Below, in pieces: positions 30,265-32,367 of a stretch of 32,367 nucleotides of DNA (its first letter is position 1; each line of letters begins with the position of its first letter). This DNA is from an uncultured Prochlorococcus sp. GTDB lineage: Bacteria > Cyanobacteriota > Cyanobacteriia > PCC-6307 > Cyanobiaceae. The notes under the pieces were generated by a model, which ran no database searches, was not told the origin of the DNA, and saw only the letters and a program-made list of their open reading frames with translations. The stretch covers positions 1-32,367 of the forward strand of contig CACNAI010000010.1 of assembly GCA_902618335.1 (NCBI GenBank). Direction: 5' to 3'. A program made the translations under genes and the position numbers.

Positions 30265-30960
30265 ATGGTCTCAGATATAAATTTTTTATTAGTAGGCAAT
30301 AGTAGACTTCATTGGGCAAAATATTCTAAAAATGAATCTAAATTTTTCCATACCAAAAAAGAGCAAAAAATTCCTGAAAATATAGATCTTGATCAATTAA
30401 TTTGGGCTTCTGTAGGAAAACTACCAAATTTTTTGCTGAAAAAAGAAAATGAAATAAAATCTAAAAATATTCAGTTATCAAATCTTCCTAATTATTTTGG
30501 AGTTGATAGAGCTCTTGCGTGTATCGCAGCTTTAAAAATTATTGAAAACCCTTCCAAAAAAGATTTGCTAATTGCAGATTTTGGAACAATATTATCAATA
30601 ACAAAATTGAATTCAAATGGATCTATTATTGGAGGTCAACTTATTCCAGGTTTTCTAACACAATTAAAATCAATGGAACAAAATACAAAAAATCTTAAAG
30701 TTCCCCAAAAATATGATATTCCGATCAATGATTTTTTAATTAATACAGAAGAAGCAATTTTAAAAGGAGTAATCAACTCTCTTACTGGAGCAGTTAACAG
30801 TTTATTTAATCCGGTAAAGGATATATTAGTAATCTGTGGAGGAGACTCTGAATTTCTTACAAAATCTCTAAAGATTCAAAAAGAAAATATTATCAATGCT
30901 CCTAATTTAGTGATGGAAGGGATGATTATTCACCACCTGTCAGCAAAAAAATTACTTTAA
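30265..30960 (+). CDS. coaX: Type III pantothenate kinase
   Basis: CoaX phosphorylates pantothenate, the first step of CoA synthesis. The 231-residue protein has the actin-like (ASKHA) pattern: LLVGNSRLHWA near the N-terminus, GVDRALACIAA (Asp81), LIADFGTILSIT (Asp105-FGT) and GGQLIPGFLTQL. In well-studied type III enzymes the first motif is D-x-G-N-(T/S); here the Asp position is Leu, so one conserved Asp appears missing while the other two remain. Similar 'LLIGNSR' forms may be common in cyanobacteria, from memory. It overlaps the convergent bcp by 9 bp. Confidence 0.85.
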   Translation: MVSDINFLLVGNSRLHWAKYSKNESKFFHTKKEQKIPENIDLDQLIWASVGKLPNFLLKKENEIKSKNIQLSNLPNYFGVDRALACIAALKIIENPSKKDLLIADFGTILSITKLNSNGSIIGGQLIPGFLTQLKSMEQNTKNLKVPQKYDIPINDFLINTEEAILKGVINSLTGAVNSLFNPVKDILVICGGDSEFLTKSLKIQKENIINAPNLVMEGMIIHHLSAKKLL

Positions 30961-31419
30961 CCCAAGATCTGAAATTATATGATCAGCCATTATTGCTGCT
31001 TTTACCTTTAAGTAAATTTTTTCGATATTACCTTCTGTATCAATCAAAAAAGTATTTCTCATCATTCCCATATATTCTTTTCCCATGAATTTCTTAAGTC
31101 CGTAGCTATCGTAATCGGAAGAAACTTTAAAAGGTTCAGGATCAGTTAAAAGAATAAAAGGTAATTCAAATTTTTCTAAAAACTTCTGATGAGAGGATGC
31201 ATTATCTTTACTAATACCAAGCACAACAATATTATTTTTTTGGAGTAAATCCCAATTCTCTTTAAAATTACATGCTTCTTTAGTACATCCTGGAGTATTA
31301 TCTTTTGGATAAAAATATAGTATTATTCTTTTACCTTTAAAGTCACTAAGAGAAACTTCTTTCTCAAAAGAATCTTTTAATTTAAATTCTGGTGCTTTGT
31401 CGCCAACCTTAAGAGCCAT
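30952..31419 (-). CDS. bcp: Peroxiredoxin Q / BCP (thioredoxin-dependent thiol peroxidase)
   Basis: A 155-residue peroxiredoxin that reduces peroxides using thioredoxin. From ATG 31419 the protein begins MALKVGDKAPEFKL, the usual family opening; upstream codons to 31455 would add twelve non-conserved residues, so I reject them. The peroxidatic Cys45 and resolving Cys50 lie in FYPKDNTPGCTKEACNF, the PrxQ/BCP pattern; then GISKDNASSHQKF, and R-N-T-F-L-I-D late, with the conserved Arg. Its ATG is 12 bp from the plausible start of the decayed gene, so its promoter lies in that remnant; TATATT is a possible -10. Confidence 0.95.
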   Translation of the reverse strand: MALKVGDKAPEFKLKDSFEKEVSLSDFKGKRIILYFYPKDNTPGCTKEACNFKENWDLLQKNNIVVLGISKDNASSHQKFLEKFELPFILLTDPEPFKVSSDYDSYGLKKFMGKEYMGMMRNTFLIDTEGNIEKIYLKVKAAIMADHIISDLGLK

Positions 31420-31431
31420 TGAAATTATTAA

Positions 31432-32063
31432 ATGAGTATGAATATAAAATACCAAAAATTTGGTTTTATGAGATTAAAGGTATGCAAGAAGTTGCAACAA
31501 AAAAAATGAAATTTGCAAAAAATCTGCCAAATTCAAAATAAAGATTTTTTAGAATCAAGTCCTTATTTAGGACAATCACATTAAACACCTTATGGTTTAG
31601 ATCCCATAGAAATTCCAATTAGTGCTCACCCTGGAGAACCACAAGTTTACCCTCTGGCATGGGTAATATTAGTTTAAGTCATTGTAAAGATGCCCTACTA
31701 TAGTCTGGCATAAAAGCAAAATAGGGATTGATATTGAAAGAACAGATAGAGATTTTAACCATATAAAATTTGCAAAAAAATATTTTTTTCTCACCAATAA
31801 ATCAAACCATAATTATTTAACAAAACATATGATATTAAATCAATGGTGTTATTGAAGTTGCTATAAAATGTGATCATGGAAAATTAGCTAAAGACATTAA
31901 CCATTGGCAAATTTTTGAAAAGCCAAAAAAGTTAATTCATAAGAAGAAAAACATACATTTAAATTATTGACAGATTAACTTCCATAATTGGACTATCGCT
32001 TTAGCCTACGAAGAAAAAACTTCTTTTAATCCAGAGATTATTTGTTGTTCGAAAAATTTTTAG
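31432..32063 (+). pseudogene. Decayed Sfp/HetI-type 4'-phosphopantetheinyl transferase
   Basis: Protein segments appear in order but in changing frames: WFYEIKGMQEVATKKMKFAK (from 31461, frame 3), then DPIEIPISAHPGEP (frame 1), GMGNISLSHCKDAL (frame 3), IVWHKSKIGIDIERTDRDF (frame 2), and IEVAIKCDHGKLAKDINHW onward (frame 3). Stops interrupt at 31539, 31582 and 31968, and the frames shift at least four times. The GIDIE metal motif (31724-31738) is intact, but the W-x-x-K-E-A motif reads W-C-x-I-E-V. Intact family members activate acyl carrier protein with coenzyme A. A window-wide sequencing problem is unlikely because neighbouring genes are intact, though a local assembly fault is possible. 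The end overlaps rarA by 4 bp. Confidence 0.85.
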
Positions 32064-32367
32064 TTTTCTTTTCTTCTAAGAAGTTCTTCATATTGGTTTT
32101 TTTCCCATCCATTATTATTTGGTTCCCATATTTTTAAGCCTCCTAAAGGTTTAGGAAGATATTCTTGTGCGACCCAATTACCTGGATAATTATGAGGATT
32201 GACATAACTATTAGAATTATTTTTCAAATGAAGTGGAACATCAATAACATTAGTAGATTTGATTGTTTCAATTGCTTTAAAAATACTTTTCGTGCTATTA
32301 CTTTTTGGAGATATAGCTAAATATAAAGAAGCCTGCGTTAAAAAATATAATCCTTCTGGAAAACCAA
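32060..32367 (-). CDS. RarA/MgsA AAA ATPase, C-terminal part (cut by window edge)
   Basis: An open frame without a start runs off the right edge; about 102 codons are visible. It contains GFPEGLYFLTQASLYLAISP, then PKSNSTKSIFKAI, VPLHLKN and YPGNWVAQEYLP, and W-E-K-N near the end, matching the C-terminal oligomerisation part of RarA/MgsA/WRNIP1 ('PEa.laLaqA..YLA.aPKSNs...', 'VPlhLrn', 'yPg.fv.Q.YLP'). These act at stalled replication forks. The AAA core lies beyond the window. It overlaps the decayed transferase gene's last codons by 4 bp. Confidence 0.85.
   Translation of the reverse strand, partial: GFPEGLYFLTQASLYLAISPKSNSTKSIFKAIETIKSTNVIDVPLHLKNNSNSYVNPHNYPGNWVAQEYLPKPLGGLKIWEPNNNGWEKNQYEELLRRKEN

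Follow-up and report, generated by a model that had tools for sequence, protein, structure and literature searches.

Decay of the core phosphopantetheinyl transferase gene in Prochlorococcus genomes that carry a divergent second copy

The core PPTase locus and its remnant

The stretch of DNA analyzed here (the window) is the entire contig C10, 32367 bases long, of assembly G000, which comprises 1.08 Mb in 51 contigs with reported ratings of 60.6% for completeness and 0.15% for contamination. The kin of G000 appear to be high-light Prochlorococcus; a scan of genome contigs brought up named Prochlorococcus records that carry related phosphopantetheinyl transferases (PPTases). At the right end of the window the remnant of a PPTase gene lies between two conserved neighbors:

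30265..30960, plus strand: type III pantothenate kinase (CoA synthesis), intact
30952..31455, minus strand: peroxiredoxin (AhpC/TSA family, bcp-like), intact; conserved left neighbor
31419..32063, plus strand: remnant of the core Sfp-type PPTase gene; the probable TTG start overlaps the start of bcp, stop TAG 32061-32063; recognized by homology to the intact 220-codon gene in relatives, by frameshifts and by stops
31413..31541, plus strand: open piece 1, N-terminal residues, closed by TAA 31539 (frames, tblastn)
31585..31677, plus strand: open piece 2, central part, 'DPIEIPISAHPGEP', after TAA 31582 (frames)
31688..31855, plus strand: open piece 3 with the GxDxE metal-binding motif (GIDIERTDR) (frames, tblastn, alignment)
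31839..31970, plus strand: open piece 4, closed by the stop at 31968; the WxxxE motif at the border of pieces 3 and 4 is frameshifted
31971..32063, plus strand: open piece 5, C-terminus with the original stop codon (frames)
32060..32367, minus strand: 3' part of a RarA/MgsA-type AAA+ ATPase gene that is truncated where the contig stops; right neighbor, conserved (family from a relative's protein)

The original prediction had placed a heavily decayed PPTase gene of the Sfp/HetI type at 31432-32063, and such a gene was indeed found: the 220-aa protein of a relative with an intact gene aligns over its full length across frames (tblastn, residues 1-220 over 31413-32060, E 2.8e-69), the alignment reading through nine stops (two TGA, three TAG and four TAA) with extra pieces in other frames. 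The three predicted stops are all where they had been claimed, namely TAA 31539-31541, TAA 31582-31584 and 31968-31970, and the predicted end coincides with the gene's own stop at 32061-32063. The start has to be moved: TTG 31419 is the most likely first codon, and the ATG at 31432 lies in another frame. The statement that the neighboring genes are intact holds for the full-length bcp, the pantothenate kinase and a PAPS reductase; it does not hold for the rarA/mgsA-like gene, of which the last 101 codons are visible on C10 and are open.

The remnant occupies the orthologous position between bcp and rarA where relatives hold an open 220-codon gene, and the same neighbors flank the core PPTase in other Prochlorococcus and Synechococcus/Cyanobium records. 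A genome-contig scan with the second PPTase of G067 (see below) yielded 70 loci, and none were obtained with the second enzyme of G000. A bcp or rarA match was present in 63 of the 70; the bcp match in one of them (L300, the second-copy stretch of G094) is distant (35%), which leaves 62 loci with the usual neighbors. Since the PPTase stands beside its usual neighbors in these 62 loci, the order bcp-PPTase-rarA is old in Prochlorococcus and Synechococcus/Cyanobium. Both by position and by sequence the remnant is orthologous to the picocyanobacterial core Sfp/HetI-type PPTase, from which it differs in being broken. The intact core enzyme of the genus (e.g., L032:884-1543, minus strand) has a peculiarity of its own: the lysine before the catalytic glutamate is missing in all 55 scored sequences (V 46, I 8, T 1), whereas it is present in 17 of 18 scored PPTases of other cyanobacteria, a figure obtained with loci picked by the family model PF01648 (AcpS-like proteins included) because motif-picked sequences bias it.

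A clade-wide loss of the core PPTase was considered and rejected, the relatives carrying the full 220-codon gene at the same place. PF01648 had suggested such an absence; this model misses the core PPTase of the genus in most genomes, and a search with the core protein finds the gene. We also note that bcp is flanked by the type III pantothenate kinase of CoA synthesis (30265-30960) and by the CoA-using PPTase (31419-32063), a neighborhood that is conserved among relatives.

The lesions were scored against G122, which is the nearest relative as judged from the flanks (about 96% identical there) and whose own gene stops four codons early, at codon 217. Compared with this reference, seven deletions (five frameshifting, two in frame), no insertion and 34 derived substitutions were counted in the remnant; of the substitutions 26 are nonsynonymous, six synonymous and two nonsense. 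With G001 as reference there are eight indels, seven of them frameshifting and one an insertion; the exact number of indels therefore depends on the reference and on gap placement. The derived substitutions are distributed 12/12/10 over the codon positions with a dN/dS of about 1.03; this distribution differs (p 0.010) from that of the derived changes in 55 intact core genes (519, 327 and 948).

It could be argued that the lesions arose through errors of sequencing, amplification or assembly and that the true gene is intact, the more so as the G000 assembly is fragmentary with its 51 contigs and 60.6% completeness and as artefacts seem to occur in the data set (a palindromic contig in G244 and a fused frame in G086). 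However, substitutions and lesions occur all along the gene, the 34 substitutions accompanying the indels follow a neutral codon-position pattern and the flanks are normal, so that decay is favored over error. Moreover, the same kind of decay is seen in genomes rated 100% complete (G063, G067 and G169), and a broken core gene is strictly associated with a second copy (see below). We consider error to be extremely improbable. What is left of the core PPTase gene in G000 is a genuine pseudogene.

A second PPTase on contig C32

The original prediction took the loss to imply that there is either another intact copy or a replacement enzyme, unless the assembly is in error. Apart from the remnant on C10, the PPTase search of the G000 assembly did bring up an intact, divergent Sfp-type PPTase of 216 aa on contig C32 (8404 bases; L143:1795-2442, minus strand). 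The search for an AcpS, which had also been proposed, gave no such protein: AcpS enzymes are about 120 aa long (PMC5605751), and the sole PF01648 match in the assembled 60.6% is the 216-aa Sfp-type enzyme (E 5e-14). This enzyme is 36% identical to the core type across the aligned part. Its AlphaFold2 model has a mean pLDDT of 92, and the best match in the PDB (Foldseek) is Sfp itself (4mrt, E 1.9e-13, TM-score 0.72). It contains the motifs GIDIER and WVIKESLIK, and the residues of GxDxE and of WxxKE..K, which we take to be a motif of Sfp-type PPTases, are among the 17 invariant columns in an alignment (A3) of 19 of the 22 second copies described below (G063, G074 and G092 left out). The first and third metal-binding residues of an Sfp-type PPTase are described as essential in PMC4103896. 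The second copy of G074, in which the second metal-binding residue is changed from Glu to Gly, had been regarded as dead; this was dropped, as that residue is reported there to be non-essential. By length, PF01648 domain, fold and motifs the C32 enzyme is an Sfp-type (group II) PPTase, predicted to transfer phosphopantetheine from CoA to a carrier protein, and it is a xenologue, neither an AcpS nor a recent duplicate of the core gene.

Eight other proteins of C32 were scanned and five had a Pfam match: a polysaccharide-type nucleotide-sugar dehydratase, a DegT aminotransferase, a cytidylyltransferase, a NeuB-family synthase and a GNAT protein. This is a surface-sugar gene set of the nonulosonic-acid type. 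No physical join connects C32 with the window contig, which counts against the takeover proposed below. C32 could be a contamination from another Prochlorococcus cell, the decay in G000 then being tied to something unseen, and it is indeed a separate short contig with a GC content of 0.285 compared with 0.306 for the window (0.295-0.317 in stretches of 8.4 kb). Against this, the reported contamination is 0.15%, the stretches that hold eight other second copies have similar or even lower GC contents (0.244-0.293), and the same pairing of a broken core gene with a second PPTase gene of its own is found in 11 other genomes, six of which are at least 96% complete. Contamination thus appears highly improbable. 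With respect to viral carriage, the remnant region had no match in the "phages" set, and a single-protein query of viral_contigs, which reaches close relatives only, gave no confirmed relative of the C32 enzyme.

Second copies and core gene breakage across the genus

We searched 266 genomes of the genus with the second-copy protein, the core protein and PF01648 and added follow-up searches; the census of second copies covers the homologues detectable in this way, and more divergent copies would escape. The core protein had a match in 218 of the 266 genomes, and these matches are 200 intact genes, 12 broken genes (G000, G063, G067, G092, G094, G098, G100, G145, G169, G197, G244 and G264), three genes cut by contig ends (G095, G155 and G250), one ambiguous case (G086) and two second copies only (G091 and G102). 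The intact genes were found in 149 of 150 genomes in the main listing, in 50 of 50 in the follow-up and in G135; they include the G122 gene with its stop at codon 217, and at least that of G012 is shorter at one end, probably at a contig edge. The 48 genomes without a core match could not be upheld as losses: together with G091 and G102, bcp is absent from 49 of 50, and rarA from eight of nine tested, so that the core locus is most simply unassembled in these genomes.

A second PPTase is present in 22 of the 266 genomes, and in 20 of them the core copy could be scored. It is broken in 12 and intact in eight (G005, G074, G077, G127, G135, G184, G188 and G227), whereas not one of the 195 genomes without a second copy has a broken core gene (192 intact, three cut by contig ends). 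This association is highly significant (Fisher p = 8e-15; 1e-12 without the light cases G100 and G264), also if G086, which was excluded from the 195 as ambiguous, is scored as broken (p 1e-13). In G086, a genome of 51% completeness, the core copy is broken up although a second copy is missing, which counts against the rule; this is probably an assembly chimera. Its C47 frame (L182), in which half a core PPTase is fused in frame to a protein resembling the DUF4912-type neighbor, was not counted as a second copy and is probably an amplification artefact. On contig C36 of G244 (L156) the same PPTase occurs twice in inverted orientation, making the contig palindromic, which is probably an amplification artefact as well.

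The second copy is an open frame in 11 of the 12 broken-core genomes, that of G098 beginning at a contig edge. The exception is G092, where the core copy is mostly deleted and the second copy is frameshifted once, within or next to eight consecutive C (L146:7264-7930); this may be a homopolymer error or a slippage site. The core copy of G100 (G100:C1, L169) has a single frameshift, which could be an error as it lies in an A-run and the dN/dS of 0.27 is like that of intact genes. In G264 (G264:C4, L174) the core copy has two nonsense codons only. Both are possible cases of early decay, and each genome has an open second copy.

On a tree of bcp and rarA, which includes 69 of the 266 genomes and under-samples those with intact genes only, the label "decayed" requires 10 changes (INDEPENDENCE), at least six of them forced by well-supported branches. 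An independent-pairs sign test on this tree gave no pair in the opposite direction and a median p of 0.0625, a value that counts against the association. For eight of the ten alignable remnants the nearest sequence is an intact gene; the remnants of G098 and G100 are nearest to each other, yet the second PPTases of these two genomes are not sisters in the protein tree. Summed over ten of the 12 remnants (G145 and G092, being mostly deleted, were left out), the derived changes amount to 319 nonsynonymous and stop changes against 141 synonymous ones, compared with 984 to 810 in the 55 intact genes (p 1.4e-8), as under relaxed constraint. With a single reference for all remnants, at least one lesion position is common to both members in 18 of the 66 pairs, which on the face of it speaks against full independence. 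We take these positions to be mostly clade-specific indels and coincidences in A-rich codons; as both inflate sharing, independence was judged from the tree and the closest-sequence comparison and not from lesion positions. Decay of the core PPTase gene recurs in genomes with a divergent second copy and is associated with it. About ten lineages are concerned, with good support for at least six, and the donor copy differs in most of them.

The protein tree comprises 68 sequences, among them 21 of the 22 second copies (G092 left out). All 21 fall into the Prochlorococcus part (100/99), scattered among other Prochlorococcus core copies, and the 12 included core copies of the genus group together in a single clade (99/95), outside of which the C32 enzyme is placed. 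From these positions the second copies, which are diverse, are xenologues from within the Prochlorococcus PPTase radiation. Twenty of 21 second copies have the lysine before the catalytic glutamate; the G063 copy, which branches as the sister of the genus core clade (100/99), lacks it as that clade does. The second copies look constrained, with a dN/dS of 0.26-0.33 in four pairs, three of which are among the same three genomes and hence not independent. PF01648 proteins of a third kind, with lengths of 227-231 aa and 41-89% mutual identity, occur in G004 (L016:1471-2163, adjoining a protein with an AMP-ligase C-terminal domain), G161 (C1, L107) and G275 (C6, L104); the core PPTase is intact in these three genomes.

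The neighbors of all 22 second copies were sampled by Pfam and by clustering, many of them being unscanned or without a Pfam match. In 11 genomes the stretch encodes nucleotide-sugar or related glycan enzymes (G000, G005, G063, G067, G074, G100, G135, G184, G227, G244 and G264; G063 and G227 solely by clustering with G000 proteins), and seven more (G077, G091, G092, G094, G098, G188 and G197) have acyl-carrier genes, i.e., KAS III-like, ACP, AMP-ligase or FkbH-type genes. Neither kind was recognized among the neighbors scanned in G102, G127, G145 and G169. Thus such genes are near the second copy in 18 of the 22 genomes and absent among the recognized neighbors in four, and the view that all second copies reside in glycan islands is refuted by the Pfam scans. 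The KAS III-like family is found by clustering on eight of the 22 stretches, and no multidomain NRPS or PKS was present among the neighbor proteins scanned. A PF00550 search of 23 genomes gave a match in 17 and a second ACP in nine. In eight of them (G063, G077, G094, G100, G184, G188, G197 and G264, with the matches of G100 and G264 below the family cut-off) this ACP is no more than about 10 kb away from the second PPTase, the exception being G135. In the G000 assembly, 60.6% complete, PF00550 found no ACP, which counts against the takeover proposed below. Where such genes are present, the first role of the second PPTase was, we infer, likely the charging of carriers for acyl groups on surface sugars.

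Probable takeover of the core function

The core PPTase charges the fatty-acid acyl carrier protein, a step that is expected to be essential. Synechocystis has a single Sfp-type PPTase (PMC4103896, PMC5605751), and exactly one PPTase homologue is encoded by 149 of 185 cyanobacterial genomes (PMC8600333). We think it very likely that in G000 the function of the core PPTase has been taken over by the second PPTase on C32, whose activity is predicted, and that the gene in the window is the pseudogene left behind. Initially, a cell would acquire a set of genes that includes a PPTase, in many cases as an island for surface glycans or acyl carriers; this is suggested by the neighbors in 18 of the 22 genomes. 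The four genomes without such recognized neighbors count against it, three of them (G102, G145 and G169) having RNR/RF3, SecA and FtsH genes beside the second copy. The acquired enzyme would then also accept the fatty-acid ACP, in line with the known promiscuity of Sfp-type enzymes; cyanobacterial Sfp-type PPTases charged fatty-acid-synthase and other carriers in vitro (PMC5605751). Being redundant once the acquired PPTase also charges this ACP, the core gene would be freed from selection and decay by small deletions and nonsense changes, and such decay is observed in 12 genomes, one of them a single contig. Finally, the cell would depend on the acquired gene.

The single-contig genome is G067 (1,704,447 bp, rated 100% complete). 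Its core copy is broken, and it has a single intact second PPTase and a single PF00550 ACP. The same holds for G169, also rated 100%. In these genomes either the second enzyme or another one charges the fatty-acid ACP. Next to its KAS III-like gene, G067 encodes a protein of 92 aa that may be an ACP which PF00550 fails to recognize, and this counts against the single carrier. Alternatively, the second PPTase could serve its own carriers only, and the fatty-acid ACP could be charged by an unassembled AcpS or third PPTase; the latter may also exist in G000. A dedicated role is likely in the eight genomes with a second ACP near the second PPTase, and the third kind of PF01648 protein in G004, G161 and G275 fits this alternative as well. 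However, searches with PF01648, the core type and the second copy find one intact PPTase each in G067 and G169, beside the one ACP, and in the 12 broken-core genomes PF01648 (E <=0.01) finds only second copies, and none in G063 and G098. We therefore regard service to its own carriers alone as improbable and prefer a takeover, against which it counts that both copies are intact in eight of 20 genomes.

A takeover of this kind resembles xenologous (non-orthologous) gene displacement, in which an acquired homologue takes over and the resident is lost, only that here the resident is caught decaying. The resident is broken, a homologue is present elsewhere in the genome and this copy is not a recent duplicate; that it performs the resident's function is suggested by survival without an intact core copy, best seen in G067. 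Unlike in usual displacements, the enzyme is one expected to be essential, about ten lineages (at least six well supported) are involved with mostly different donors, and the new copy is usually located among variable glycan or acyl-carrier genes and not at the core locus. Like the cluster-associated Sfp-type PPTases of natural-product pathways, a family that was tested in PMC5605751 and can charge carriers of several pathways, the second PPTase would be able to travel with carrier-protein genes; in contrast to them, its recognized neighbors belong for the most part to surface-sugar genes, KAS III-like enzymes, SDRs, single AMP-ligases and small ACPs. The replacement flexible genomic islands of PMC4033161 are the same kind of variable cassette with similar functions from different genes, but some of the cassettes described here would carry an indispensable function. 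Among titles and the beginnings of abstracts, a scope outside of which most subscription journals and bioRxiv preprints fall, we found no earlier report of PPTase decay or of second PPTases in Prochlorococcus.

It is conceivable, though rather unlikely, that acquired PPTases make surface-glycan cassettes self-entrenching, such that after decay of the core gene the cassette could no longer be dropped or could be swapped only for another one bearing a PPTase. If true, an essential function would pass from cassette to cassette and constrain the surface (and phage-receptor) types open to a lineage. The sister genomes G098 and G100, with broken core genes and non-sister second PPTases, would be an example of such a hand-over; G145 and G169, with broken core genes and second copies without recognized glycan neighbors, make this reading less probable.

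Prochlorococcus is among the most abundant phototrophs of the ocean. The repeated breakage of the core gene only in the presence of a divergent second copy amounts to a natural experiment in which an essential function would move from the core locus to an acquired gene. This gene often resides in a variable island, and the pattern predicts strains that would be unable to lose or swap the acquired gene set.
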